Below are positions 4,308-63,969 of a stretch of DNA of 64,000 nt, piece by piece. The position numbers and the translations under genes are program-made. Position 1 is the first letter of the stretch. The number at the start of each line of letters is the position of its first letter. The DNA is from Acidobacteriota bacterium. Its GTDB lineage: Bacteria > Acidobacteriota > Vicinamibacteria > Vicinamibacterales > CAVVIG01. Where the stretch lies: positions 124,001 through 188,000 of the forward strand of contig QHWB01000032.1 of assembly GCA_003222395.1 (NCBI GenBank), written 5' to 3'. Under the pieces are notes generated by a model. That model saw only the letters and a program-made list of their open reading frames with translations, ran no database searches and had not been told where the DNA came from.

Positions 4308-5600
4308 ATGCGTTTCGAACGGCGCGCCTGTGCGCGTACTTCGATTTTCTGCGTTCTTGTGCTGAGCGCGTCCGCCGCGGCGAAGGCGCAGCCGGCGGCG
4401 ATCGATATCGACCGGGCCGTGCGCGAAGCGCTGGATCGCAACCTGACGCTGCTGGCGGAGCGCTATTCGATCGGCATCGCCGACGCGCGCCTGCTGGCGG
4501 CGCGGCTCCGGCCGAACCCAGTGTTCACATACAACTCGATGCTGCCGGACGCGACGATCTACAACAACAACATCAATCCGGTCGAGACGGTCTTCCGCAC
4601 CGACGTCATCGTGGAAGGCGGCGGCAAGCGCCAGCAGCGGATCGAGGTTGCGGAACAGGCGCGTTCGATCGCCGAGCTGCAGCTGCTGAACACGATGCGC
4701 ACGATCGTGCTCGACGTGCAGAGCGCCTTCGTCGACGTCGTGCTCGCGAGAGAAAACGTCGCGCTCGCGCAGGAGTCGCTGCAGGCCTTCAACGCGCTCG
4801 TTCAGGTGAACGCCGTGCGCGTTCGCGCCGGCGATCTGTCGCAGATCGAGCTCACCCGGTCGCGGCTCGCGGCGCTGCAGTTTCAGAACGACGTGCGGCA
4901 GCAGGAGTCGAAGCTCGTCGTCGCGCGCAACAGGCTGAAGACGCTGATCGGCCGCACGGGTCCGGAGCCCGTCGACTTCGTCGGCGATTTCCGCCGCGGC
5001 GCCGACGGGTTGGATCTCGGGGTGCTGCGCGACCGCGCGCTCCGGCTGCGGCCCGACGTTCAGGCCGTGCGGCGCGATCAGGCGCGATCGACGGCCGATA
5101 TCCGCCTGCAAATCGCCCAGGGCAAGATCGATTACACGATCAGCGGCGAATTCCACCGCCAGCGCGCGCCGTCGGGCACGGGCAATCAATACGGCGTGTA
5201 CCTCAGCGTGCCGATCCCGATCTTCAACCGTAACCAGGGAGAGATCGAGCGGGCGCGGCAGGAGGAACATCAGCTCGAGGCGAAGATCCGCGCCGTCGAA
5301 GCCGACGTCTCGGCTGAAGTCGAAGCCGCGTACGAAACCTACGCCTCGTCGCGCGACGTCGTGAACACGATCGAAGCGGCCATGCTCGCGCAGGCGCGCG
5401 ACGTGCGGACCACGACCGCCTATTCGTACCGCCGCGGCGAAGCGAGCTTCGTCGAGTTCCTCGACGCCACGCGCGCGTTCAACGACACGATGCACAGCTA
5501 CAACGAGGCGCGCGCCGAGTACGCGCGCAGTCTCTACACGCTCGACTCGGCAACCGGCGCGTCGGTATCGACGCTCGCGCCCCTGAAGGTGACGCCATGA
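4308..5600 (+). CDS. TolC-family outer membrane efflux protein (CzcC-like)
   Basis: 430 aa with a signal peptide ending near AAAKAQ, then two homologous TolC halves: long amphipathic helices with recurrent ALAQESLQAF and RLAALQF stretches and short strands (NPVFTYNS; GVYLSVPIPIFNRNQGEI). The PIPIFNRNQGEIERA block is diagnostic of heavy-metal CzcC/CusC-like outer membrane factors. It would form the outer-membrane channel of the tripartite pump encoded by the next two genes. Its stop overlaps the start of the adaptor gene (ATGA at 5597), consistent with one operon. Confidence 0.93.
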   Translation: MRFERRACARTSIFCVLVLSASAAAKAQPAAIDIDRAVREALDRNLTLLAERYSIGIADARLLAARLRPNPVFTYNSMLPDATIYNNNINPVETVFRTDVIVEGGGKRQQRIEVAEQARSIAELQLLNTMRTIVLDVQSAFVDVVLARENVALAQESLQAFNALVQVNAVRVRAGDLSQIELTRSRLAALQFQNDVRQQESKLVVARNRLKTLIGRTGPEPVDFVGDFRRGADGLDLGVLRDRALRLRPDVQAVRRDQARSTADIRLQIAQGKIDYTISGEFHRQRAPSGTGNQYGVYLSVPIPIFNRNQGEIERARQEEHQLEAKIRAVEADVSAEVEAAYETYASSRDVVNTIEAAMLAQARDVRTTTAYSYRRGEASFVEFLDATRAFNDTMHSYNEARAEYARSLYTLDSATGASVSTLAPLKVTP

Positions 5601-6916
5601 AGCACGTGATCGGTCTGCTCGCCACGCTGGCCGGCCTCGCAGCCGCAACCGGCTGCGACGGTCGCGCCGCGACGCCCGCCGAAACGACGGGCCGGCCCGC
5701 GGCGGCGCCCGGCGTCGTAGAGGTTCCGCCGGACTCGCCGATGCTCGCGCAGCTGAAACGCGACACCGTGAAGCTCGTCGATCTGCCGACCGACGAGGTC
5801 GTCGCGCCCGGCAAGATCGAAGCGAACCCCAACCGGGTGTCGAAGGTGGTCCTTCCGGTCAGCGGACGAATCACGTCGGTGCTCGTCAAGACGGGTGACG
5901 CGGTGGAAGAGGATCAGCCGCTCCTCACGATCGCCAGTCCCGACGCCGACAGCGCCATGTCGGCGTACCTGTCGGCGCAGGCGACGGTCACGCAGGCCGA
6001 GGCGGCGCTCGGCAAGGCACAGGCCGACTTGGATCGCGCGTCCGATTTGTTCGAGCACAACGCCGTGGCCAAAAAGGACGTACTGAACGCTGAGAGCGCC
6101 CTCACGCAGGCGAAGGCAGCCGTCCAACAGGCGCATGCGTCGCGCGAGCAGACGGTGAGGCGGCTCAGCGTCCTCGGCCTCACGGCGAGCGAATCGCGGC
6201 AACAGGTCGTCGTCCGGTCGCCGCTGGCCGGAAAGGTCCTGGAGCTGACCGTCGTGCCCGGCGAGTACCGCAACGACACGAGCGCGAGCGTCATGACGAT
6301 CGCCGATCTGGCGACCGTGTGGGTGACGTCGCAGGTACCGGAAAGCTACATCCGCTTCGTGCAGATCCGCGAGCGCGTCGAGATCAGCCTCGTCGCCTAC
6401 CCGGGCGAGGTGTTCGAAGGGCGCGTGTCGCGCATCGCCGACGTCGTCGATCCGCAGACGCGCACCGTGAAGGTGCAGGCGGAAATGGACAACCGCGCCG
6501 GACGCTTCCGGCCCGAGATGTACGGCAGCATCCATCACATCGAGGCCGTGGCGAAGACAGTGGTCGTTCCCGCCGGAGCGGTGGTCGAGAACAACGACGG
6601 GCGCAGCATCGTGTTCGTCGAGACGTCGTCCGGGCGCTTCGAACAGCGTCAGGTGTCGGTCGGCAAGCGCGCGGGCGACGTCGTGAGAGTCGTGAACGGC
6701 GTGACGCCGGGCGATACGGTCGTCGTCGACGGCGTGATGCTCCTCAAAGGCATGCTGAGGCCGAGCGCCCGCGGCCCGCACGAACCCTGCGGGGTCCCCA
6801 ACGCGGCAGCCGCGTTGGGGTGCCGTAGCGAGTCAGCGCCTGCGGCACGCCGAGAGAATGCCCGCCGCAGCGCCATTGCGAGCGGGGGTGGGGTCCCCGC
6901 GAGCCTTAAGAGATGA
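5597..6916 (+). CDS. RND efflux periplasmic adaptor (CzcB-like membrane fusion protein)
   Basis: 439 aa. It begins with a lipoprotein signal (MKHVIGLLATLAGLAAATGC). Next come a barrel-sandwich half with VVLPVSGRITSVLVKTGDAV, a coiled-coil hairpin (AQATVTQAEAALGKAQADLD), the second lipoyl half (VRSPLAGKVLELTVVPGEY) and the membrane-proximal beta-domain (GDTVVVDGVMLLKGML). The last ~50 residues (from about ARGPHEP) do not resemble the family. They are translated from a two-hairpin repeat element that sits before the next gene, yet the frame stays open and ends in an ATGA overlap with the permease gene. The metal specificity is unknown; the adjacent permease is of the heavy-metal type. Confidence 0.93.
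   Translation: MKHVIGLLATLAGLAAATGCDGRAATPAETTGRPAAAPGVVEVPPDSPMLAQLKRDTVKLVDLPTDEVVAPGKIEANPNRVSKVVLPVSGRITSVLVKTGDAVEEDQPLLTIASPDADSAMSAYLSAQATVTQAEAALGKAQADLDRASDLFEHNAVAKKDVLNAESALTQAKAAVQQAHASREQTVRRLSVLGLTASESRQQVVVRSPLAGKVLELTVVPGEYRNDTSASVMTIADLATVWVTSQVPESYIRFVQIRERVEISLVAYPGEVFEGRVSRIADVVDPQTRTVKVQAEMDNRAGRFRPEMYGSIHHIEAVAKTVVVPAGAVVENNDGRSIVFVETSSGRFEQRQVSVGKRAGDVVRVVNGVTPGDTVVVDGVMLLKGMLRPSARGPHEPCGVPNAAAALGCRSESAPAARRENARRSAIASGGGVPASLKR
6790..6911 (+). repeat. Two-hairpin leader element, copy C (inside efflux operon)
   Basis: The element contains a perfect 11-bp hairpin, CCCCAACGCGG (6796-6806) with CCGCGTTGGGG (6810-6820). Downstream is GCGAGCGGGGGTGGGGTCCC, whose G-run and C-run pair imperfectly, ending one base or so before the permease ATG at 6913. 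The G-rich hairpin core (GGGG-TGGG-CCCC) recurs at 30.8, 57.4 and 63.9 kb, each time in sense orientation just upstream of a start codon. CGCCTGCGGCA and ATGCCCGCC are shared with the 63.9 kb copy. Here it overlaps the 3' end of the adaptor reading frame. Confidence 0.6.
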
Positions 6917-9900
6917 TCGCGAAACTGCTGCGCCTCGCGCTCACCCAGCGATTTCTCTCCGTCGTGCTCGGCGTCGGGCTGGTGGCGCTCGGCGTCTGGG
7001 CGTTCATGCAGCTGAGCGTCGAGGCGTACCCGGACATCTCCGACACGCAGGTCGTCGTCATCACGCTGTATCCGGGCCATGCGGCGGAAGAGATCGAGCA
7101 GCAGGTGTCGGTGCCGATCGAGCGGGCGTTGAACGGCGTTCCGAACGTGATCGCGCGCCGGTCGCGCACGATCTTCGGCCTGTCGGTCGTCGAGCTGACG
7201 TTCGAGTACGGCACCAACGATTACTTCGCGCGCCAGGTGGTGCTCGAGAAGCTGCGCGACGCGACGCTGCCCGACGGCGTCACGCCGTCGCTCGGTCCCC
7301 TCTCGACGCCGATCGGCGAGCTCTATCGGTACACGCTCGACGGACGGAACTACGACTCGCAGCAACTGCGCGAGATCGAGGACTGGATCGTCGAGCCGAG
7401 GCTGCTGCAGGTCGCAGGCGTGACCAACATCACGCCGTTCGGCGGGACGATCAAGCAGTACCAGATCGAGGTCGATCCGGTTGCTCTCGGCAAGTACGGA
7501 CTGTCGATCAAGGACATCGCGCAGGCCGTCGACTCGAACAATCAGAACGCCGGCGGCGCGCTCCTCGACAACCGGCAGCAGGGGCTCGTGGTGCGCGGCG
7601 TCGGACTCATTCAATCGATCGCGGACATCGAGAACGTGGTCGTGTCCGCCAGCGGCGGGGTGCCGGTGTTCGTCCGCGACGTCGGGCGGGTGCACGTCGG
7701 CCCCGCGCCGCGCTCCGGCATTTTCGCCGTCGGCACCGAGACCGACCACGTCGAAGGCATCGTGCTGATGCGCCGCGGCGAGAATCCGAGCCAGGTGCTG
7801 AAGGGCGTCCACGAGGCGATCGACGAGCTCAACGGCACCATGCTGCCGCCCGGCGCGGCGATCGTGCCGATCTACGATCGCACCGATCTCGTCGACAACA
7901 CGCTGCACACCGTGACGCACACGCTCGTCGAGGGACTCGTGATCGTGGTCGCGGTCCTCTTCCTGTTCCTCGGCAGCGTGCGCGCCGCGGTGCTGACCGC
8001 GATCACGATTCCGCTCTCGCTGCTCTTCGCGTTCGTCTGCATGCACTTCAGCGGCATCCCCGCCAACCTGCTCAGCCTCGGCGCAATCGACTTCGGCATC
8101 ATCGTCGACGGCACGCTCGTGATGGTCGAGCACATCGTGCATGCGCTGTCGCACCGCCAGCCGCGAGCGGGCGAAGGCGCGCTCGACGTCATCCGCGACG
8201 CGGCGCTGGAGGTCGAGCGGCCGATCTTCTTCTCGCTCCTGATCATCGTGTCGGCCTACATCCCCCTCTTCACGCTCGAGCGCGTCGAGCGCCGGCTGTT
8301 CACGCCGATGGCCTTCACCGTCTGCTATGCGCTGATCGGATCGATGCTGATCGCGCTGACGCTCATTCCCGTCCTCGCGACGTATCTGTTCCGCCGCACG
8401 ACGAAGACCTGGGACAATCCGGTGCTGACGTGGCTGGCCGCGCGTTACGAGCGCGCGCTGGCGTGGTCGATCGCGTTTCCGACGCGCGTGGTCGCCATCG
8501 CCGTCGTCGTCGTCGCGGCGGCGGGACTTCTGTCGCTGCGCCTCGGCTCCGAGTTCCTGCCGCAGCTCGATGAAGGCGTTCTCTGGATCCGCGCGAACTT
8601 TCCGGCAGGCATCTCGCTCGACAAATCGGCGGACCTCGCGTCCACCATTCGATCGCTGATCGGCCAATCCGCCGAGGTGAAAACAGTCAGTTCACAGACG
8701 GGCCGGAACGACGACGGGACCGATCCGTACGGCCCGAACAGGAACGAATTCTTCGTCGCGCTGGCGCCGTACGACACGTGGCCGCACGGAAAACGGAAAT
8801 CGGATCTGATCGAGGAACTGAACGCGCGGCTGCGCAGCGCGGTGCCTGGAGCGTTCTTCAGCTTCACGCAGCCGATTATCGACAACGTCACGGAGGCCGT
8901 CACAGGATCGCCCGCCGACCTCGCCGTGATCATCACCGGGCCGGATCTTGCCGAGCTGCGCAGACTCGGACAGGACGCGCTGGGCGTCCTGCAGAAGGTG
9001 CCAGGCGCCGCCGACACCGGCATCGAGCAGGAAGAGGATCAGGCGCAGCTCCGGATCCGGATCGATCGGCAGGCGGTCGCGCGCTACGGCATCAACGTGC
9101 GCGACGTCCAGGACGTGATCGAGCTGGCGATCGGCGGCCGCACGGTCAGCACGTTCTTCGAAGGCGAGCGGCGCTTCGACATCGCCGTCCGTTACGTGCC
9201 GGAAGCGCGCACCGATCCGTCGGCCATCGGCACGATTCTCGTGGCCACGCGCGACGGCGGGCACGTCCCCCTGTCGCAGCTCGCGGAGATTCAGGTCGTC
9301 AACGGCGCGAGCATCATCGCGCGCCGCGAGAACCACCGCCAGATTTCGGTGCGCACGAACATCCGCGGCCGCGACCAGGGTGGATTCGTGCAGGAAGCGC
9401 AGGAGCGGTTCGCCGCCGCGGTGAAGCTCCCGGACGGTTACCGCGTCGAGTGGGGCGGACAGTTCGAGAACCTCGCGCGCGCGCGCCGGCGGCTCGCGTT
9501 CATCCTGCCGATCACGATCCTCGTCATCTTCTGTCTGCTGTTCTTCACGTTCGGATCGGTGAGCTACGCCGGTCTCGTGCTGCTGAACGTGCCGTTTTCG
9601 CTCGTGGGCGGCATTCTCGCCCTCTACCTTCGCGGCATCAATCTGAGCGTCTCGGCCGCCGTCGGCTTCATCTCGCTGTTCGGCGTGGCGGTGATGAGCG
9701 GGGTCGTCGTCGTGTCGGAGATCAGCGCGCGGCGCGCGGATCGCCGCGTCCGCGGGCGCGACGCCGTCGTGCAGGGATCGCTCGCGCAGATGCGTCCGGT
9801 GCTGATGATGATCGTCGTCGCGATGCTCGGCATGGTGCCCGCCGCCTTCGCGACCGGCGTCGGCTCCGACGTGCAGCGGCCGCTCGCAACCGTCGTCGTC

Positions 9901-9993
9901 GGCGGGCTGCTCTCCACGCTGGTGCTCACGCTGCTGGCGCTGCCGGCGCTCTACTGGCTGATCGCCGGCCGTGCGGAAGGCGAACCATCATGA
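6913..9993 (+). CDS. Heavy-metal RND efflux permease (CzcA/CusA-like)
   Basis: 1026 aa, the normal length for the HME-RND family, which exports divalent or monovalent metal cations using the proton gradient. Twelve TM segments are evident (TM1 FLSVVLGVGLVALGVWAFMQ). The TM4 signature DFGIIVDGTLVMVEH (about residues 393-407) keeps the two Asp and the Glu of the proton relay typical of heavy-metal pumps. Two large periplasmic loops (about 35-335 and 555-870) contain YPDISDTQVVV and the porter domains. The second half has LFGVAVMSGVVVVSEI in TM10. The start overlaps the adaptor stop (ATGA) and the stop overlaps the DUF190 start. The actual metal (Co/Zn/Cd versus Cu/Ag) cannot be decided from motifs alone. 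Confidence 0.95.
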   Translation: MIAKLLRLALTQRFLSVVLGVGLVALGVWAFMQLSVEAYPDISDTQVVVITLYPGHAAEEIEQQVSVPIERALNGVPNVIARRSRTIFGLSVVELTFEYGTNDYFARQVVLEKLRDATLPDGVTPSLGPLSTPIGELYRYTLDGRNYDSQQLREIEDWIVEPRLLQVAGVTNITPFGGTIKQYQIEVDPVALGKYGLSIKDIAQAVDSNNQNAGGALLDNRQQGLVVRGVGLIQSIADIENVVVSASGGVPVFVRDVGRVHVGPAPRSGIFAVGTETDHVEGIVLMRRGENPSQVLKGVHEAIDELNGTMLPPGAAIVPIYDRTDLVDNTLHTVTHTLVEGLVIVVAVLFLFLGSVRAAVLTAITIPLSLLFAFVCMHFSGIPANLLSLGAIDFGIIVDGTLVMVEHIVHALSHRQPRAGEGALDVIRDAALEVERPIFFSLLIIVSAYIPLFTLERVERRLFTPMAFTVCYALIGSMLIALTLIPVLATYLFRRTTKTWDNPVLTWLAARYERALAWSIAFPTRVVAIAVVVVAAAGLLSLRLGSEFLPQLDEGVLWIRANFPAGISLDKSADLASTIRSLIGQSAEVKTVSSQTGRNDDGTDPYGPNRNEFFVALAPYDTWPHGKRKSDLIEELNARLRSAVPGAFFSFTQPIIDNVTEAVTGSPADLAVIITGPDLAELRRLGQDALGVLQKVPGAADTGIEQEEDQAQLRIRIDRQAVARYGINVRDVQDVIELAIGGRTVSTFFEGERRFDIAVRYVPEARTDPSAIGTILVATRDGGHVPLSQLAEIQVVNGASIIARRENHRQISVRTNIRGRDQGGFVQEAQERFAAAVKLPDGYRVEWGGQFENLARARRRLAFILPITILVIFCLLFFTFGSVSYAGLVLLNVPFSLVGGILALYLRGINLSVSAAVGFISLFGVAVMSGVVVVSEISARRADRRVRGRDAVVQGSLAQMRPVLMMIVVAMLGMVPAAFATGVGSDVQRPLATVVVGGLLSTLVLTLLALPALYWLIAGRAEGEPS

Positions 9994-30202: not shown

Positions 30203-30292
30203 TAGCGCGAGGCGTTCAGCGAAGCGTCGCGCGTCGCTCGCCTGAAGGCCGGCATACGTCGACGCTCGCCTGAAAGGCTCGCGCTACGTAGT
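30203..30292. repeat. Degenerate dispersed repeat in spacer
   Basis: The spacer between the YitT gene and coxG consists of interleaved words GTAGCGCGAG, GCCTGAAGGC, GCTCGCCTGAAAGGCTCGCG and GCTACGTAG, forming weak hairpins. CCTGAAGG with GCGCTAC is shared with 24.85-24.87 kb. It may terminate both convergent genes. Confidence 0.45.
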
Positions 30293-30727
30293 CGCCGACA
30301 TCTCTTTCGACAACTGATTGAAAAAATCGCCGGCGAGCTTGCGCGCCGTCGCCTCGATCAGGCGCGAGCCGACCGCGGCAATCAGCCCGCCGACCTGGAC
30401 GTCCGCCTCGCATCCGACGCGCGTCGCCGCCTCGCCGGGCGACAGAACGATCGCCGCCGATCCGCGGACGAATCCAGGACCGCCTTTGCCTTCGAAGCTG
30501 AGCGTGAGCGACTCCGGCGGGTGTTTGTCGCTGATGGCGGCGATGCCGGCGTAGACGCCTTTGATACCAGGGACGCCGATCTTCAGCGTCGCCTCGTAGG
30601 CGTCGGGCGCGGTTGCGGTCAGCGATTCGCAACCGGGAATGCAGCGCCGCAGAATCGCCGGATCGCCGAGCGCGTCGAACACCCGCTGGCGATCCGCGGG
30701 AACGGAGTGGGAGACGGTGAGCTTCAC
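30284..30727 (-). CDS. CoxG-like SRPBCC protein
   Basis: 147 aa from GTG at 30727 (KLTVSHSVPADRQRVFDALG); another in-frame GTG eight codons upstream is possible. The SRPBCC/CoxG fold is indicated by DPAILRRCIPGCESL, YEATLKIGVPGIKGVYAG, EGKGGPGFVRGSAAIVL and DVQVGGLIAAVGSRLIEATA. CoxG proteins help anchor or assemble aerobic CO dehydrogenase at the membrane. It is downstream of coxM with a two-hairpin element in the spacer. The C-terminal membrane anchor seen in some CoxG is absent. Confidence 0.88.
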   Translation of the reverse strand: MKLTVSHSVPADRQRVFDALGDPAILRRCIPGCESLTATAPDAYEATLKIGVPGIKGVYAGIAAISDKHPPESLTLSFEGKGGPGFVRGSAAIVLSPGEAATRVGCEADVQVGGLIAAVGSRLIEATARKLAGDFFNQLSKEMSATT

Positions 30728-30753
30728 TTTTCTGACGCGCGGGGGCCACACCT

Positions 30754-30840
30754 TCTTTTCTCGCGGCGGGGACCCACCCCCGCCGCTGTTGCTCGGCGCC
30801 TTACCGCGCCTCGCAACGGCTCAAGGCTGCCGCGTGCGAA
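30754..30840 (-). repeat. Two-hairpin leader element, copy A
   Basis: On the coding strand of coxG, a first imperfect stem (GTTGCGAGGCGC with GCGCCGAGCAAC) is followed by a 9-bp stem GCGGCGGGG...CCCCGCCGC with a short TGGG(T) loop. A purine-rich run (GAGAAAAGAAGG) and the start codons of coxG come next. The first ~60 nt are almost identical to the 57.4 kb copy, including CAGCCTTGAGCCGTTGCGAG. It lies 14-30 nt from the gene start. Confidence 0.65.
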
Positions 30841-34713: not shown

Positions 34714-36273
34714 CTACGATCGGAACCGTCTCGCGTCGATGCCGTAGGTTCGCACTTTGTAATTGACGATGCGCTCGGTGGTGTCCAGCAGGCGCGCCGC
34801 CTTGGCCCGATTCCCTCTCGTCGTCTTCAGCGCATCCTGAATCAGATCTTTTTCGTACGACGACACGGCGTCCTTGAGCGCCATGCGCGTCACCGTGCCC
34901 GAGGCCTCGGCCGTCTGCAGCGACGGCGGCAGATGATGACCGTGGATGACTTCGCCGTCGCACATCAACACGGCGCGCTCGAGCGTGTTTTCCAGCTCGC
35001 GCACATTTCCCGGCCAGTGATAGCTGGCCAGCATGTCGATCGCGGGAGTCGAAATGCGCTTGATGCTGCGGTGGTGCTCGCGCGCGAACTTTTCGAGGAA
35101 ATGATCGACGAGCAGCAGCATGTCCGGCTTCCGCTCGCGCAGCGGCGGGACGAACATGGTGAAGACGTTCAGCCGGTAGTAGAGGTCCTCGCGGAACGTG
35201 CCGGCGGCAATCGCCTTCTCGAGATCCTTGTTCGTGGCGGCGATGAGCCGCACGTTCGCTTTCACGGTCTCGGTGCCGCCCACGCGCTCGAACTCGCGCT
35301 GCTGCAGGACGCGGAGCAGCTTCACCTGCGTCGCCAGGTTGATGTCGCCGATCTCGTCGAGGAACAGCGTGCCCCCCTCGGCGAGCTCGAAGCGGCCCTT
35401 CTTGCGCGCTTCGGCGCCGGTGAACGCGCCCTTTTCGTAGCCGAACAGCTCCGATTCGATGAGGCTCTCTGGCAGCGCGGCGCAGCTCACCTTCACGAAC
35501 GGCTTGTTCGCGCGCAGCGAGTTGTAGTGGATCGCGTGCGCGATCAGCTCTTTGCCGGTGCCCGACTCGCCGCGAATCAGCACCGTCGTGTTCGTCCCGG
35601 CGACCTGCGCCACCTGCTCGTAGATCTGCCGCATCGGTCCGCTGCTGCCGACCAGATGCGAGAAGTCGTACCGCTCGCGAAGCTCCTGCCGCAGATGCGT
35701 GTTCTCGTCGACGAGCCGCCGCTTGTCCTCGTCGATCAGCCGGTGGATTTTGATCGCCTGCGCGATCATCGACGCGACCACGCCGAGGAACTTCACGCTG
35801 CGGTTGAACGTGCGCTCCGGATCGAATTTGAGGTCGATTGCCAGCGCCCCCACTGCGCGCCGGTTGAGGACGATGGGGACGCAGATGAAGCTCAGTTCCT
35901 CGTGCGCGAGCTCGGGACGCCGCGCCGCGCGGTGCAGGAAGGCCGGCTCGCGGCTGACGCGCGGCACGACGATCGGCTTGCCGCTCTGCACGACGCGCCC
36001 CGTGATCCCCTCGCCGACCTCGTGGCTGACCGCGCGCGACGAGTCGCTCATGCCGTCGGAGGCTTCGACATGCAGCGCGCCGCCGGCATCGAGCAGCGCC
36101 ACGAGGCCGCGGACGGCGCCGTACTGATCCGTAAGTACCTCGAGCACCCGGTGCAGCGAGGCCTTGAGGTTGAGCGTGCCCGAAAGCGCCTGCGAGACGT
36201 CGAGGAGGGTCGACAGGCGTTGCGCCTCGCGTTGGCGCGGATCGGCACGAGCGACATTTTTGTTGATCGGCAT
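34714..36273 (-). CDS. Sigma-54-dependent transcriptional activator with GAF domain (NifA/FhlA-like)
   Basis: 519 aa from ATG 36273 ([20 protein letters not shown]); an upstream in-frame ATG at 36456 would add 61 non-conserved residues. N-terminal GAF domain (about 20-175: [39 protein letters not shown]). The AAA+ domain (about 205-430) has Walker [12 protein letters not shown], the sigma-54 contact loop [17 protein letters not shown], Walker [12 protein letters not shown] and the Arg finger in YYRLNVF. A C-terminal Fis-type HTH ([20 protein letters not shown]) follows. No receiver domain, so it senses a ligand through GAF. It probably controls the adjoining molybdenum hydroxylase operon. Confidence 0.92.
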
Positions 36274-39521: not shown

Positions 39522-39535
39522 GACTGGGCAGGCCG

Positions 39536-39612
39536 GGCGGGAGGGGCAGGACGGGCGGGATTTGCACGAAAGCGCTGATCAGCACCGAACACCGCGTCCT
39601 GCCCCTCCCGCC
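39536..39612 (-). terminator. Long inverted repeat in aceF-lpd spacer (attenuator or processing hairpin)
   Basis: GGCGGGAGGGGCAGGAC (39536-39552) is perfectly complementary to GTCCTGCCCCTCCCGCC (39596-39612), a 17-bp GC-rich stem with a 43-nt loop. There is no U-tract. Flanking DNA repeats related GGGCAGG/GGGCGGG words. In the middle of an operon it could attenuate or stabilise transcripts; the role is inferred. Confidence 0.5.
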
Positions 39613-39636
39613 GTTCCTGCCCGTCCCGCCCGACGA

Positions 39637-41175
39637 TCATCCCTGTAGAGCGAGAACGAACGGCTCCTCAATCGCTTGGACGACCCAGCGCAGGAACCGG
39701 ATCCCGTCGGCGCCGTCGATGGCGCGGTGATCGTACGACAGCGAGAGCGGCAGCATGACCCGCGGGACGAACTGATTGCCGTCGAATTTCGGCTGCGTCG
39801 AGGCGCGCGAGATGCCGAGGATGGCGACTTCCGGCGCGTTGACGATCGGCGTGAAGTAGGTGCCGCCGATGCCTCCGAGATTCGAGATGCTGAACGTGCC
39901 GCCCTGCATCTCCTCGAGCGCGATCTTGCGGCTGCGCGCCTTCTCGGAGAGCTGAACGAGCTCCACCGCGATCTGGATGATGTTCTTCTGATCGGCGTTG
40001 CGAATCACCGGCACCAGCAGCCCGCGATCGGTGTCGACGGCGACGCCGATGTTGACGTACTTCTTCACGATGATCTCGTCGTTCTCGAGATCGATCGACG
40101 TGTTGAACTGCGGGAACACCCGGAGCGCCGATGCCACCACCTTGACGGCGACGGCCGTGACGGTCAGATTGCCTCCGGCCGCCTCGGTCTGCTTCGCGTA
40201 CTTCTTGCGCAGCTCCTCGAGTGCGGTGGTATCGGCCACGTCGAATTGCGTGACGTGCGGAATCGCCGCCCATGCCGCCGCGAGATGCTCGGCGGTCCGG
40301 CGCCGCACGGCGCGCATCGGCTGACGCTCGACGGCACCCCACCGCGAGAAATCGGGCAACGCTTCCGACGCGACGCCGCCGCTGCGAGCGGCGCCGGCGA
40401 CGAGCCGCTTCGCGTGGTTCTTCACGTCCTCGACCGAAATCCGTCCGGCGTCGCCGCTGCCCGCGACCTGGTTGATGTCGACGCCGAGCTCGCGCGCCAT
40501 GCGGCGCACCGACGGCGCCGCCGGGGCGGTCGGCGTCTCCGGCGTAGCGGGCGGCTGTTCGGCCGGCGGCCGCGCGCCGCGCGAGATATCGACGACCTTC
40601 GCGCCGCTCTTGTCGCCGGCCGTCTCGCGCTTCGTCGGTTCGCGCTGCTCCTCGCCGCCCGCTTCAGGAACGTTCTCGGATTTGGCGGCGACGGTCTTCG
40701 TGGCCTGCGTCTCGCGCGGTGGCTGCGACTCGCGCGCCGGCTGCGGTTCGCGCGCTGGCTGCGACTCTCGCGGCGGCTGCGGTTCCCGCGGCGGCTGCGA
40801 CTCTCGCGGCGGCTGCGACTCGCGCGCCGGCTGCGGTTCCCGCGGCGGCTGCGCCTGGCGGCGCGGCTCCGGCTCGGGGGGCTGCGACTCGCGGGCCTGC
40901 TGCGGCTCGGCAGCGGGCTCCGCCTTGTTCGACGCCTCACCCTCGTCAACTGTCAGAATCGCCTGTCCGACTTTCACCTTGTCGCCGGCCTTGACCTTGA
41001 TGTCTTTGACTTGTCCGGCGACGGACGAGGGCACCTCGATCGTGGCCTTGTCGGTTTCGAGCTCGAGAACCGGCTGTTCCTTCGCGAGGGTGTCGCCCTG
41101 CTTCACCAGCACTCGAAGGACGTCGCCGGCCTGAATGTTCTCGCCCAGCTCAGGGAGCGTGAAATCAGTAGGCAC
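39637..41175 (-). CDS. aceF: Pyruvate dehydrogenase E2, dihydrolipoamide acetyltransferase
   Basis: 512 aa. A single lipoyl domain (about 1-80, modified Lys in ELETDKATIEVPSS) is followed by a linker of ~120 residues. The linker is built from degenerate RESQPPREPQPAR units encoded by a DNA minisatellite at about 40729-40866. Next are an E1/E3-binding domain (VRRMARELGVDINQVAGSGD, about 220-250) and the catalytic domain (about 275-512) with FSISNLGGIGGTYFTPIVNA and active-site His in SYDHRAIDGADGIRF. It accepts acetyl groups from AceE. The 15-bp gap to aceE indicates one operon. Confidence 0.95.
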   Translation of the reverse strand: MPTDFTLPELGENIQAGDVLRVLVKQGDTLAKEQPVLELETDKATIEVPSSVAGQVKDIKVKAGDKVKVGQAILTVDEGEASNKAEPAAEPQQARESQPPEPEPRRQAQPPREPQPARESQPPRESQPPREPQPPRESQPAREPQPARESQPPRETQATKTVAAKSENVPEAGGEEQREPTKRETAGDKSGAKVVDISRGARPPAEQPPATPETPTAPAAPSVRRMARELGVDINQVAGSGDAGRISVEDVKNHAKRLVAGAARSGGVASEALPDFSRWGAVERQPMRAVRRRTAEHLAAAWAAIPHVTQFDVADTTALEELRKKYAKQTEAAGGNLTVTAVAVKVVASALRVFPQFNTSIDLENDEIIVKKYVNIGVAVDTDRGLLVPVIRNADQKNIIQIAVELVQLSEKARSRKIALEEMQGGTFSISNLGGIGGTYFTPIVNAPEVAILGISRASTQPKFDGNQFVPRVMLPLSLSYDHRAIDGADGIRFLRWVVQAIEEPFVLALQG

Positions 41176-41190
41176 GAGTTGATCGTTTCA

Positions 41191-43872
<2,682 letters not shown>

Positions 43873-56054: not shown

Positions 56055-56813
56055 TCACCCGGGTTCGGGGTTCTTGGTTCCAGGTTCGCGTCGACCGAAA
56101 ACTAGACCGCACTCGATATCCGACCTCGCCGCATCCCGCAGCCGCCCGATTTCGCGACGACCGGTTCCGGAGGGCGCCACCGCCGGGTGAATGATCACAT
56201 CGATGGGACCTCGACGGAACAGTCGTGCTCCGGGACCCATCACCGTGCGCGTCCCACGAACGGTGATCGGCACGACGTCACGTCCGGTCGCGACCGCCGC
56301 GCGAAAGGCTCCCGCACGAAACGGTTCGAGGTCGGGTCCGCGAGCCCTGTGTCCCTCCGGATAAATCAACACTGACGATCCATCCCGCAGCGCTGCTTCG
56401 ATGACATCGACCGAGCCGGCGCGCGTCGCCGCGCTCCGACGATCGACGGTGATGTATCTCGCCTTCCGAATCGCGGTGCCGACGACGGGCCACGCCGCGT
56501 ACCGGCGAGCGACGACGAAGCGGTACGCCGACGGGATAGCCGCCATCAGGACGATCGAGTCGAGATAGCTCGTGTGGTTGCTGACGAACACGACCGGCCG
56601 ATCGCCAGGCACGTGAGCGGCGCCGCTGACTCGCAGCCTGCACCCGCTCGCGGCAAGCAGCCATCGCGCCCACCGTTTCGACCACAAGTCGGACCGTCGC
56701 CCCGGCGGAAGCAGCAACAGCACCAGCCATGCAGGAGGCACGCTGATCGCGAGGAGCGCCACGACGTAGACCGTGAACGCGAGCGCCGCAATGCGCTCCG
56801 GCTGCCGCCTCAT
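56055..56813 (-). CDS. 1-acyl-sn-glycerol-3-phosphate acyltransferase family (PlsC-like)
   Basis: 252 aa. An N-terminal TM segment (AALAFTVYVVALLAISVPPA) and VFVSNHTSYLDSIVLMAA (catalytic NHx4D-type motif, about 83). ARYITVDRRSA and LIYPEGHRARGPDLEPFRAG (block with EGHR in place of EGTR) follow. The C-terminal residues REPGTKNPEPG are encoded by a stuttering repeat (56060-56088), so the original end was probably nearby. The ATG overlaps the GNAT gene stop (ATGA). It probably O-acylates the product of the GNAT partner or lysophosphatidate. Confidence 0.9.
   Translation of the reverse strand: MRRQPERIAALAFTVYVVALLAISVPPAWLVLLLLPPGRRSDLWSKRWARWLLAASGCRLRVSGAAHVPGDRPVVFVSNHTSYLDSIVLMAAIPSAYRFVVARRYAAWPVVGTAIRKARYITVDRRSAATRAGSVDVIEAALRDGSSVLIYPEGHRARGPDLEPFRAGAFRAAVATGRDVVPITVRGTRTVMGPGARLFRRGPIDVIIHPAVAPSGTGRREIGRLRDAARSDIECGLVFGRREPGTKNPEPG
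56058..56090 (+). repeat. Stuttering repeat at PlsC 3' end (GGTTCTTGGTTCC words)
   Basis: GGGTTCGGGGTTCTTGGTTC and CAGGTTCG are degenerate GGTTC repeats matching the reverse strand of the coxL-coxM spacer (31743-31790). They encode the last residues and stop of the PlsC-like protein. Confidence 0.55.
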
Positions 56814-57376
56814 GCGCCGGTATGCCGGAACAGCGCGTGCGCTCGCGGCGCGAACCGTTCGAGCGTCAGCATCATCGGTTGGAACTGCGCCTCCGGCGTG
56901 CCGATGAGGGGACCGAACGGCTCGAACCCGAGGTGGGCGTACAGCTTCTGCTGTTGGACGATCCCGGAGATGACGGCGAGGTCGTAGCCGCAGGCGATCG
57001 CGTAGCGCCACACGGCGTCGAGCAGAAGGGGCAGCAGCCGGCCGCGGCGATCGCGGCGGTCGATCGCGAGCAGCCGCAGCTCGCACACCGACCGGCGGGG
57101 AGGCAGGTACGCGTCGAGGTCCGCGAGCCGCTCGTCCAGAGAAAACGGACGCGTACCGCGAATCGCCACCATGCCGACGAGGCGTCGATCGCGCAGGCCG
57201 ATGACGTACGTGTTTTGGGAATCGAAGCGGTCCACGAGCCGTCGGGTCGGCACGGCCGCGTACCGCGGGATTTCTTCCGCGAACGTCTCGTGGTTGAGCG
57301 CGTAGATCTGCTCGAACTCGAACGGTTCGGTGGCGAGCTTGATGTGCAAGGCGTTCTGCTTATGGCGCATATTCAA
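56810..57376 (-). CDS. GNAT-fold N-acyltransferase (FeeM/ornithine-lipid-type)
   Basis: 188 aa (ATG 57376; ATG 57370 also possible). It opens with IKLATEPFEFEQIYALNHET, then RRLVDRFDSQNTYVIGLRDR and LVGMVAIRGTRPFSLDERLA. The GNAT acyl-CoA/ACP site is in RLLAIDRRDRRGRLLPLLLD and the final strand/helix in YAHLGFEPFGPLIGTPEAQF. These blocks resemble long-chain N-acyl amino acid synthases rather than ribosomal acetylases. Coupled to a PlsC gene by ATGA, as in N-acyl amino acid lipid pathways (OlsB-OlsA, GlsB-GlsA). The product amino acid is unknown. A two-hairpin element directly precedes the start. Confidence 0.8.
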   Translation of the reverse strand: MNMRHKQNALHIKLATEPFEFEQIYALNHETFAEEIPRYAAVPTRRLVDRFDSQNTYVIGLRDRRLVGMVAIRGTRPFSLDERLADLDAYLPPRRSVCELRLLAIDRRDRRGRLLPLLLDAVWRYAIACGYDLAVISGIVQQQKLYAHLGFEPFGPLIGTPEAQFQPMMLTLERFAPRAHALFRHTGA

Positions 57377-57446
57377 TCGCGGCGGGGACCCACCCCGCCG
57401 CTGTTGCTCGGCGCATGCGCGCCTCGCAACGGCTCAAGGCTGTTGG
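57368..57446 (-). repeat. Two-hairpin leader element, copy B
   Basis: On the GNAT coding strand: CAGCCTTGAGCCGTTGCGAG, then GCGC...GCGCCGAGCAAC closing the first stem. Next is a perfect 9-bp stem GCGGCGGGG-TGGGT-CCCCGCCGC at 57373-57395, only a few bases before the start codon. Nearly identical to copy A at 30.8 kb over about 60 nt. Confidence 0.68.
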
Positions 57447-58611: not shown

Positions 58612-60849
58612 ATGCTGTACCGACTTCCGATTGCCGCCGCGTGCGCCGTCGCATTTACCGTTGCGCTGCCCAACGCCGCGAATCACCGGTTCATTACCGA
58701 AACCGATCTGTACAAGTTCACGTGGATCGCGGATCCGCAGATCTCGCCCGACGGGTCCGCCGTGGCCTTCGTGCGCGTCGTCGTCAACGAGAAGGAGAAC
58801 CGCTACGAGACGTCGCTCTATACGGTGCCGACCAGCGGATCGGAATCGCCGCGACGGCTGACGGCGGGCACTCGGGACGTCAGTCCGCGCTGGTCGCCGG
58901 ACGGAAAGAAGATCGCGTTCATCCGGACGCCTGCGAGTCAACCGAACGGTTCCGCGAGTCAATCGACCGATCCCGCCCAATCGGGCGGTTCAGACAGTGC
59001 CAGGCAGCAATCGAGCCAGGTGTTTCTCCTGCAGATGGACGGCGGTGAAGCGCGTCCGCTGACCGATTTGTCCGGCGGCGTCACCGCGCTCGCGTGGTCA
59101 CGCGACGGCAAAACGATCGCATTCACCGCGACGAACGGGCGGGACGGGCAGGAGGGGCGGGAAAGACAGGAGGGGCGCGAGAGGCCGGAGGGGCGCGAGA
59201 GGCAGGAGCAGGAGGCGCCGAAGAGTGATGTCAGAGTGATTACGCGGGCCGTGTACCGCGCCAACGGCAATCCAACCTACGTCGACAACGAACGTCACTC
59301 GCACATCTTCACCGTACGCGCGCCGGACGATGGCGCCGACAAGCCGGTGCCGACGCAGATTACCGACGGCGACTTCGACGAGCAGGGCATCGAGTGGTCG
59401 CCGGACGGATCGAAGATCTACTTCACGTCGGTCCGCGTGCCCGAGCCGTACTACGACGAGAACGACGGTGAGTTGTTCAGCGTCGGGGTGTCCGGGGGAC
59501 CGCTGACGAAGGTGGCGAGCATCGAGGGCGGCATCGGCAGCATTTCGGTGTCGCCGGATGGTAAGCGGATCGCGTTCGTCGGCACCGAACGCGGCAGGCC
59601 GATCCGTTCCTACAGTCAGCCCGACCTGTGGGTGACCGAGGCGACGCCGAACAGTGCGCCGAAGAATCTCACGGCGAAGTACGACTTCGACATCGCCGGC
59701 GGCATCGGTGGCGATCAGGCCGCGCCGCGCGGGCAGAATCGCAAGCCGATCGTCTGGTCATCTGACGGCAGAAAGATCGCCGTCGTCGCGGCCGAGCGTG
59801 GCAGCTCGAACCTGAAAATCGTCGACGTCGCAACCGGCCGCGTCAATCCGCTCACGGACAGCACGCAGGACGTGATCGCCTACAGCGCGACGCCGCAGGG
59901 CAACAAGTTTGCGGCGACGTTCTCGACGCAGACGAACATCGGCGACATATTCTTTCTGGACTACTCGCCGACGTCGCAGGAGCCGCATCGCGCACAGATC
60001 ACGCACGTGAATGACGATCTATTCAAGGACATTCGGCAGAGCGAGCCGGAGGAAGTCTGGTACCGCACGTTCGATGGCAAACAGATCCAGGGATGGATTC
60101 TCAAGCCGCCCGACTTCGATCCGTCGAAAAAGTACCCGCTGATTCTCGAGATCCACGGCGGGCCGCACTCCGCCTACGGCAACGTCTACACGCACGAATT
60201 TCAGTGGATAGCGGCGAAAGGGTACGTCGTCCTGTTTACCAACCCGCGCGGCAGCACTACGTACGGTCAGGAGTTCGGCAACATCATCCAGTACCACTAC
60301 CCGGGCGACGACTACAAGGATCTGATGGCCGGCGTGGACGAGATGCTGAAGAAGGGGTACATCGACGCGAATCGACTCGGCGTCACCGGCGGCAGCGGCG
60401 GCGGACTGCTGACCAACTGGACGATCACGCAGACGCAGCGCTTCAAGGCGGCCGTCGCGCAGCGCGACATCGCCGACTGGTACGGATTCTGGTTCACTGC
60501 CGACTTCACGCTGTTCCAACCGACATGGTTCCACAAGGCGCCTTGGGAGGATCCACAGGATTTCGCGGCAAGGTCACCGATCACGCACGTCGCCAACGTC
60601 ACGACGCCGCTGATGCTCGTGCTCGGCGATCAGGACTACCGCACGCCGCCGGCTGACGGCGGTGAGATGATGTTCCGCGCGCTGAAGTATCGCAGGATTC
60701 CGACGGTCATGGTCCGCTTCCCGCGCGAGACTCACGAGCTGTCGCGTTCGGGCGAGCCGCGCCACCGCGTCGAGCGCCTGCAGCACATCGTCGGGTGGAT
60801 GGACCAGTGGCTGATGGGTAAGAAGAACGCGATGTACCCGACGCAGTAG
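58612..60849 (+). CDS. S9 family prolyl oligopeptidase-like serine peptidase
   Basis: 745 aa, signal peptide MLYRLPIAAACAVAFTVALP. WD40/PD40-like beta-propeller (about 40-440: ISPDGSAVAFVRV, SPDGKRIAFVG). C-terminal alpha/beta hydrolase (about 490-745) with nucleophile Ser in LGVTGGSGGGLLTNW (about 595), Asp in LVLGDQDYRTPPADG (about 672) and His in FPRETHELSRSGEP (about 707). An in-frame tandem repeat (QEGRERQEGRERPEGRERQE, about residues 180-199) is inserted between propeller blades. The 3' end overlaps the convergent PIG-L gene by 143 bp. Confidence 0.93.
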   Translation: MLYRLPIAAACAVAFTVALPNAANHRFITETDLYKFTWIADPQISPDGSAVAFVRVVVNEKENRYETSLYTVPTSGSESPRRLTAGTRDVSPRWSPDGKKIAFIRTPASQPNGSASQSTDPAQSGGSDSARQQSSQVFLLQMDGGEARPLTDLSGGVTALAWSRDGKTIAFTATNGRDGQEGRERQEGRERPEGRERQEQEAPKSDVRVITRAVYRANGNPTYVDNERHSHIFTVRAPDDGADKPVPTQITDGDFDEQGIEWSPDGSKIYFTSVRVPEPYYDENDGELFSVGVSGGPLTKVASIEGGIGSISVSPDGKRIAFVGTERGRPIRSYSQPDLWVTEATPNSAPKNLTAKYDFDIAGGIGGDQAAPRGQNRKPIVWSSDGRKIAVVAAERGSSNLKIVDVATGRVNPLTDSTQDVIAYSATPQGNKFAATFSTQTNIGDIFFLDYSPTSQEPHRAQITHVNDDLFKDIRQSEPEEVWYRTFDGKQIQGWILKPPDFDPSKKYPLILEIHGGPHSAYGNVYTHEFQWIAAKGYVVLFTNPRGSTTYGQEFGNIIQYHYPGDDYKDLMAGVDEMLKKGYIDANRLGVTGGSGGGLLTNWTITQTQRFKAAVAQRDIADWYGFWFTADFTLFQPTWFHKAPWEDPQDFAARSPITHVANVTTPLMLVLGDQDYRTPPADGGEMMFRALKYRRIPTVMVRFPRETHELSRSGEPRHRVERLQHIVGWMDQWLMGKKNAMYPTQ
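59139..59213 (+). repeat. Purine-rich tandem repeat inside S9 peptidase gene
   Basis: Degenerate G/A-rich 18-nt units (GGGCAGGAGGGGCGGGAAAG, CAGGAGGGGCGCGAGAGG) encode the (QEGRER) repeats. Related GGGCAGGA/GGGCGGGA words occur at 39530-39632 and 60866-60965. Confidence 0.7.
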
Positions 60850-63856: not shown

Positions 63857-63950
63857 AGCGAGAAGCGCCTGCGGCAATGCCCGCCCGCAACGCGCCTTCG
63901 AGCGTTGCGGGCAAGGCATCAGCGCGCGGGGGTGGGGCCCCGCGCGAAAG
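63857..63950 (+). repeat. Two-hairpin leader element, copy D
   Basis: A perfect 11-bp stem GCCCGCAACGC (63883-63893) with GCGTTGCGGGC (63902-63912) is followed by a 9-bp stem CGCGCGGGG with CCCCGCGCG. An A/G-rich run (GAAAGTAAGAAAGGA) leads into an ATG at 63970. CGCCTGCGGCA and ATGCCCGCC are shared with copy C at 6.8 kb. Same orientation as the following start codon. Confidence 0.65.
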
Positions 63951-63969
63951 TAAGAAAGGACAGCGGGAC

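Follow-up and report, generated by a model that had tools for sequence, protein, structure and literature searches.

The 64,000-nucleotide stretch analysed here (hereafter the window), from an Acidobacteriota bacterium of the order Vicinamibacterales, carries four copies of a small two-hairpin element, each placed before a gene start, which raises the question of whether the element is a structured leader RNA or a piece of mobile DNA. The original prediction took it for a mobile or recurrent 5' RNA element that always lies upstream of a start codon and always in sense. A search for the hairpin tip GGGGTGGGKCCCC with at most one mismatch returned exactly four sites in the window, against 0.07 expected, at 6885 (+), 30768 (-), 57384 (-) and 63929 (+), which confirms the four predicted places. 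The same four were the best matches in the window of a covariance model built from type A copies (described below) elsewhere in the genome (E 6e-8 to 9e-3). Two weak matches of the type A model, at 35886-35943 and 43392-43498 (+) with E of 0.03 and 0.19, are possibly relics or chance. According to reading and gene calls, all four copies are in sense and point at a start on their own strand, as predicted for the window. When folded against 200 shuffles, copies 2, 3 and 4 were beaten by only one or two of them (z -3.8, -3.3 and -3.2), and copy 1, in the stretch as folded, was no better than its shuffles (z -0.7, 42/200).

Copy 1, on the plus strand, is preceded on its 5' side by a perfect accessory hairpin, CCCCAACGCGG..CCGCGTTGGGG (6790..6823), and inserts resembling this hairpin recur elsewhere in the genome (L001, L027 and L072). 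The copy itself has a head of type C, AGCGCCTGCGGC (6835..6846), a hairpin 2 that reads GCGAGC GGGGGTGGGGTCCCC GCGAGC (6878..6904), and a tail CTTAAGAG (6905..6912) that joins ATG 6913 with a gap of 0 nt; the gene that follows, 6913-9993, was named an RND permease in the original prediction, and the copy overlaps the readable 3' end of an upstream ORF, 5597-6916. Copy 2, on the minus strand, is nested within an outer half hairpin, whose 3' half TGTGGCCCCCGCGCG with the tail CAGAAAA (30728..30751) abuts GTG 30727, the start of gene 30284-30727, again with a gap of 0 nt. The inner unit is of type B and consists of the head CAGCCTTGAGCC (30818..30829), a hairpin 1 of GTTGC GA GGCGC..GCGCC GA GCAAC (30788..30817, by reading and folding) and a hairpin 2 (30763..30786, by tip search and folding). 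Copy 3, also on the minus strand, has a type B head (57431..57442), a hairpin 1 (57403..57430, by reading and folding), a hairpin 2 (57379..57401, by tip search and folding) and a tail GATTGAAT (57371..57378) that runs up to ATG 57370 of gene 56810-57370 with a gap of 0 nt. Copy 4, on the plus strand, shows the type C head AGCGCCTGCGGC (63864..63875), a hairpin 1 of GCCCGCAACGC..GCGTTGCGGGC within ATGCC..GGCAT (63877..63919, by folding and the covariance model), a hairpin 2 (63923..63946, by tip search, folding and the covariance model) and the A-rich tail AAAGTAAGAAA (63947..63957), from which 12 nt separate ATG 63970, the start of a gene that is truncated by the window end and absent from the gene calls. 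The predicted stem 1 of 10-11 bp needs correction in copies 2 and 3, where it is composed of 5 bp, a GA/AG internal loop and another 5 bp; stem 2 of copy 1 also holds a GA/AG mismatch. Other repeats of the window are an array of 9-bp tandem repeats, TTCCTGCCT/GTCCTGCCC, at 60850-60984, to which inverted stretches near 39526-39632 and 59136-59171 are related, and an 18-bp tandem array of nine registers at 40669-40902, within the called gene 39637-41175.

The element is far from confined to the window. The exact tip occurs 127 times in this genome of 7.74 Mb (62 and 65 times on the two strands), and the reversed control pattern does not occur in it at all. A covariance model built from 31 type A copies gave at least 147 matches at E <=0.01 in the same genome, a lower bound since 150 of 16,085 candidates were scored. 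Among 149 genomes of the order Vicinamibacterales, this one included, 48 carry the tip, with up to 328 copies; the carriers belong mainly to three families (f1, f12 and f15), together with a single genus of a fourth (f10), and copy number can differ strongly within a genus, two genomes of g16 having 328 and 23. In a wide scan that covered contigs of at least 3 kb from the 84,980 genomes of a species collection, and in which the pattern was the tip followed by 12 nt and RAAATG, all 47 stretches found came from records of Acidobacteria/Vicinamibacterales. The repeat is thus a high-copy, patchy and lineage-limited family in Vicinamibacterales.

Copies range roughly from 75 to 110 nt, and at least five types of 5' head, plus rarer ones, were distinguished by eye and pattern: A YGACGTTCTGTTCTRRATACGC, B CAGCCTTGAGCC, C AGCGCCTGCGGC, D ACCGCGGCGAGC and E ATCCGGAGCG. 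Every head has a hairpin 1 of its own and is followed by a shared part, namely hairpin 2, a variable stem topped by GGGG-TGGGG-CCCC with a loop that is mostly GTGGGG, and then an A-rich tail, which varies little in length and usually ends at ATG. The left ends of type A follow KYKG-YGACGTTCTGTTC with a weakly conserved flank (60 heads), while those of type C read AGCGCC with no flank preference (56 heads). Of 220 elements, 134 have mismatched GA/AG steps (CGAG..CGAG) in their stems, compared with 11 of 220 after shuffling, and Watson-Crick pairs replace such a step in five type A copies.

The compensatory base changes on which the prediction depended are present. Two-sided changes were found in 9 of the 21 pairs of the 31 type A copies, and four of five covariation measures were unmatched by any of 500 shuffles; the fifth, which counts further pair types, was not exceptional (82/500 shuffles). 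The first six outer positions of stem 2 pair above every shuffle in 99 copies of this genome, and in 17 copies of relatives pairing exceeded the shuffle mean at positions 1-5 and every shuffle only at positions 1 and 5. Of the 647 type A cells, 85% pair and none shows a one-sided change of the G-U type. This absence favours an origin of the covariation at the level of DNA rather than RNA only, a point that is only suggestive and is tempered by the G-U pairs seen in free folding (5.5%, against 10.6% in shuffled sequence). It bears on the alternative that the repeat is a cis-acting 5' leader RNA which would aid or control translation or mRNA stability, its hairpins insulating the start and its A-rich tail serving as a ribosome landing site. 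We consider this alternative unlikely; the TACG and GNRA-like sequences among the hairpin loops would suit it, but a complete lack of one-sided changes is unusual for a helix selected as RNA.

Copies are also found inside one another. Type C is nested in the loop of type A at six loci (L064, L080, L083, L087, L090 and L091), and type B occupies the tip of an A, C or D unit at three (L014, L026 and L043); these nests lack GGGG or TGGGG from the host tip, and clean insertion is therefore not proven there. Tandem arrays with shared flanks occur at L010, L013, L020, L056 and L057. Such slippage-like growth could be taken to indicate that the repeat arises by recombination or template switching at palindromes with no dedicated enzyme, its position before starts being what is left after purging elsewhere, and two-sided arm changes with no intermediates would fit arm-to-arm correction. 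We nevertheless give this explanation hardly any credence, as neither the near-constant distance from hairpin 2 to ATG nor the ATG at places other than starts, both described below, is explained by it.

Ribosomal operons allow the same junctions to be compared among relatives. In 27 family genomes, of which 25 gave an rplP match and 26 an rplE match, 11 copies with at most two mismatches were found (15 readings minus one chance match in a coding region and three reverse-strand duplicates). Eight of the 11 end exactly at ATG, at rplP (G000, the present genome, and G039), rpsQ (G005 and G137), rpsN (G000 and G120) and rplR (G117 and G104), where the G117 locus stops within the gene and its rplR identity comes from the first residues; of the other three, two in G049 do not end in this way and one forms the inner member of a paired copy. 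Different head types are carried by G000 and G120 at the rpsN junction, and these copies are best read as separate gains. At the rplP junction the heads of G000 and G039 differ and hairpin 2 and tail are nearly identical, so that these two may share common descent rather than represent separate gains. Empty junctions exist in other genomes, for instance TAG-CT-ATG at rpsQ in two genomes, and in most genomes a short spacer or an unrelated hairpin occupies these ribosomal junctions. At rpsN, G128 is empty with a 30-nt spacer, while in its congener G120 a stretch of 32 nt precedes the element, which is followed by ATG. The contrast of filled with empty junctions in the 27 genomes is one between species or genera; empty sites at strain level whose flanks could be aligned were not seen. 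ATG stood at one end in 63 of 100 copies of this genome, and no target duplication was established. Taken together, the stem covariation, the nested types and the filled and empty junctions in relatives are signs of mobility, and with the copy number they bear out the predicted recurrent, structured and mobile element.

Several other features were observed in these ribosomal spacers. In the rplF-rplR spacer of G005 (L145), GGGCCCCACGAGAGACTAGAAG lies immediately 5' of ATG and resembles a decayed 3' half of the element. The rpsC-rplP or rpmC-rpsQ spacers of many family genomes (among them L115, L121, L124, L125, L108 and L105) hold other long inverted repeats, which are built from short tandem units, such as TAATCGGGTAATTGGG.. 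with its complement or GCTGATGGCTGATGG..CCATCAGCC, and which leave a few tens of nucleotides before ATG. The rplE-rpsN spacer of the present genome (L088 and L130) contains the rplE 3' end TGCAATTCATCGGCATGCCGTTCCG twice with a short insert between, and a similar duplication of the genome's own rplE end, with another insert, is seen in G099 (L139).

The position relative to genes was assessed with gene calls from our own simple hexamer finder, in which SD-like motifs receive a small bonus and starts are approximate. For 100 unique copies of this genome (the listed places after removal of duplicates, with 27 further tips left out and copies inside called genes included), the neighbours in the direction of the element were (+,+) in 53, (-,-) in 11, (-,+) in 15, (+,-) in 9 and one-sided in 12; the 31 copies of G104 and G120 gave 13, 4, 7 and 1 in the same classes, the rest lying inside genes or at edges. 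A wider set comprised 144 outermost copies, 92 from this genome, 29 from G104 and G120 and 23 from MAG loci, after 13 inner or tandem units and three contig-edge copies had been dropped; the 23 MAG copies are those in 47 loci that do not match the scan pattern, by which many ATG-ended copies were removed. Of these, 93 face a start, 27 face a stop, 22 are intragenic and 2 are far from genes. The excess in sense just upstream of starts is therefore real (53:11 in this genome and 93/144 of outermost copies), and the claim that the element is always upstream and always in sense does not hold genome-wide. For the leader RNA alternative, the sense excess between co-directional genes is a point in favour, intragenic copies being included in that count, and the 27 stop-facing and 22 intragenic copies are a point against. 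One copy (L009, G000:C14 near 70895) was read as pointing at the 3' end of an apparent tRNA gene on the opposite strand.

Many copies have an ATG at their 3' end. It follows the tail in 63 of 100 copies of this genome, against 14% at random places. In a set of 131 copies, 81 bear the ATG, and 61 of these have it at an offset of 13-15 nt past CCCC. The preference extends beyond start contexts, as ATG follows the tail in 11 of 18 stop-facing and 10 of 17 intragenic copies of this genome (21/35 together; p 4e-6 and 2e-5), and 5 of these 21 open a coding-like ORF. None of nine stop-facing copies of other genomes has ATG after the tail, and the ATG preference outside start contexts thus rests on this genome. 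The ATG at the element end is a coding start in 44 of the 93 start-facing copies. Of the 69 ATG-ended copies that lie outside genes and no more than 400 nt from the next gene, 44 coincide with a coding start (25/48 in this genome, 8/10 in G104 and G120, and 11/11 in MAGs). The expectation is 23% if every intergenic ATG is equally likely, a figure obtained from a 184-kb portion of the present genome that has 69 start ATGs and 232 further ATGs between genes. This 2.8-fold surplus over the equal-ATG expectation means that start regions are favoured as targets or that such insertions are retained by selection.

Once exact-start copies were removed, the ratio in favour of facing a start was 49:25, which does not depart significantly from a neutral 55% (p=0.06), the neutral expectations being derived from the same 184-kb portion. 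Most of the sense bias is thus explained by preferential joining to ATG in a compact genome. That copies not exactly at a start lack significant orientation bias also counts against a leader RNA. An upstream spacer of 10-58 nt remains 5' of the head in 26 of the 39 exact-start copies with a placeable upstream stop (28 further copies could not be placed). It was also considered whether the element replaces the native spacer, which is unneeded given these 26 copies and the native spacers of few nucleotides that exist at rpsQ.

The copies at exact starts, which include ribosomal protein genes and, at L228, an apparent rpoB-rpoC junction where the element was read as ending exactly at the start, would be expected of a leader RNA that acts on translation. 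Tails at coding starts are also richer in A than those at other ATGs (0.61 in 30 copies against 0.50 in 42, p=0.002, with loci selected for RAAATG tails excluded), and the A content upstream of 83 native starts is 0.27. This difference is consistent with tails at starts being selected for initiating translation, or with the remaining tails having decayed. GGAG, GAGG or AGGA occurs in only 16 of 80 native ATG starts and in 2 of 80 in a control window, and with so few SD-like motifs an insertion before a start, which would make an SD-free leader, may be tolerable. From these sequence features, help in translation initiation appears possible.

Other results weigh against the leader RNA alternative. 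The downstream genes look unrelated and comprise an RND permease, a CoxG-like protein (both names from the original prediction), ribosomal proteins (by tblastn) and rpoC, secE, trpF and IscA (by eye), and among them a coherent set of the kind that lies downstream of a riboswitch or leader regulator was not found. Moreover, at the ribosomal loci that were compared, most genomes lack the element at the same genes. The Rfam 15 covariance models gave no match in the window at gathering score, and at seven element loci the only matches with E <=0.1 were three sub-threshold microRNA matches over another hairpin, which supports the original view that no known RNA family is involved and offers the leader RNA alternative no family to belong to. 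These microRNA matches, which fall on an AT-rich hairpin located downstream from rpsN, were taken as chance. An intrinsic terminator was rejected by reading, as no T-run follows hairpin 2 on its 3' side in sense. Of the predicted 5' RNA element, a role in translation is possible in view of the A-rich tails at starts, and ligand sensing found no support; the regulatory-RNA reading possibly holds mainly as a secondary role.

This genome has a single match to Y1_Tnp, which is RAYT-like. This gene, in L103 (G000:C106:57566-60883, at about 800-2100), adjoins a truA-like gene and sits amid more than 10 tandem copies of a GGTAGCGCGAGCCTTTCAGGCGAGCGTGGATATCACC-like repeat, apparently a GTAG REP array. 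An ordinary REP family mobilised by the host RAYT, a Y1 HUH transposase, would agree with the size, palindromes, high copy number and patchiness of the element as well as with this single match. We regard it as quite improbable, and mobilisation by the host RAYT was rejected, because the Y1 gene lies among its own, different GTAG-type repeats, with no tip at its locus; because a tip-like motif was found at only 2 of 29 Y1 loci of the family, with one mismatch each (flanks of up to 1.5 kb per side); and because Y1 matches are absent in G104, G117 and G018 despite 134, 52 and 33 copies. G104, which is 97% complete, has no match to Y1, Y2 or IS110 transposases. In a scan of 27 family genomes for Y2 (IS91/Helitron-like) and IS110, no Y2 was found in the present genome or in G120. 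In addition, no neighbour resembling a transposase was recognized by eye, from first residues, beside the head-less copies among 221. By their presence in these genomes, the three tested transposase families (Y1, Y2 and IS110) do not seem to explain the repeat. One contig stretch of the present genome (G000:C23:7474-24666) shows six IS110-type transposase matches in about 17 kb and is apparently IS-rich.

We therefore regard the element as probably a lineage-specific, non-autonomous, REP/MITE-like mobile palindrome of Vicinamibacterales whose 3' end is joined preferentially 5' of ATG. It would spread by insertion, the 3' end being joined just 5' of ATG at a near-constant distance from hairpin 2. 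The substrate may be a folded single strand that presents hairpin 2, with strand joining at ATG, and the enzyme would be supplied in trans; recognition of a folded single-strand hairpin and strand joining are features of HUH systems. With about 7% intergenic DNA, many of the tolerated ATG sites would be start codons, from which an accumulation in sense before starts would follow. An element before a start would make up the 3'-terminal part of the 5' leader, and the A-rich tail may let insertions at start codons keep translation going in a genome where SD motifs at starts are rare.

A stronger version, which is possible though rather doubtful, is that an ATG-recognising insertion machinery is at work, in which the element brings its own hairpin and A-rich translation initiation region and repeatedly takes over the leader ends of essential genes (ribosomal proteins, rpoC) with expression surviving, and the enzyme would belong to a class not yet linked to such repeats. 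If true, a start-codon-seeking repeat would be rewriting 5' leaders genome-wide. A repeat that often ends exactly at starts in sense, even those of ribosomal protein genes, shows that small mobile DNA can reshape 5' leaders by another route than known REP families. Two questions would become testable, namely how ATG can be recognised selectively by a transposition system, and how SD-poor genes cope with a strong hairpin situated some 10 nt from AUG. We suggest that this repeat be masked when starts and leader RNAs are annotated in Vicinamibacterales.

The preferred reading, a REP/MITE-like mobile palindrome, can be placed beside known repeat families. Full-text searches of the published literature showed no paper on this repeat. 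As described in excerpts of Di Nocera et al. (2013; PMC3733652), GTAG REPs lie predominantly downstream of coding regions, and the element resembles them and their RAYT systems as a short, high-copy palindrome with variable stems, patchy, sometimes intragenic and often clustered distribution. Unlike the GTAG REPs of those excerpts (PMC3733652), it has two different hairpins in fixed order and sits before starts. A GTAG/GGAG foot was not seen in the left ends of type A (60) or C (56), the other heads being judged by eye, and RAYT association is lacking, the RAYT of this genome having a separate GTAG-like array. CGTC REPs, in the same excerpts (PMC3733652), have stems of 8-9 bp, loops of 4-5 nt and tails that are mostly CCA, form mostly head-to-head dimers and are without a known transposase. 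The element shares with them GACG/CGTC at the left end, in type A only, and differs in its other heads, which lack CGTC, in its hairpin 2 loop of mostly GTGGGG, in its A-rich tail and in copies that are single, nested or head-to-tail. The element is neither a GTAG REP nor a CGTC REP, where the CGTC class is defined from its description in the excerpted source (PMC3733652).

Interspersed copies at polymorphic insertion sites, as in MITEs, were found among the family genomes, the polymorphism being between species. MITEs derived from IS200/IS605 have hairpins near their ends and a short flanking target at one end, with no target duplication. The element is like them in its end-near hairpins and in an apparent flanking target at one end, and no duplication was established for it; it differs in that no transposase gene was seen between these ends and in that its preferred flank would be ATG, which reads CAT on the opposite strand. 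BOX/RUP of pneumococcus, Rickettsia palindromic elements and Correia elements are likewise small interspersed repeats that lie close to genes or within them. The sequence and structure of all of these differ from the present repeat, and we know of no exact abutting of start codons for BOX/RUP, Rickettsia palindromic elements or Correia elements. The repeat behaves like REPs and MITEs, and its habit of ending at start codons is unusual.
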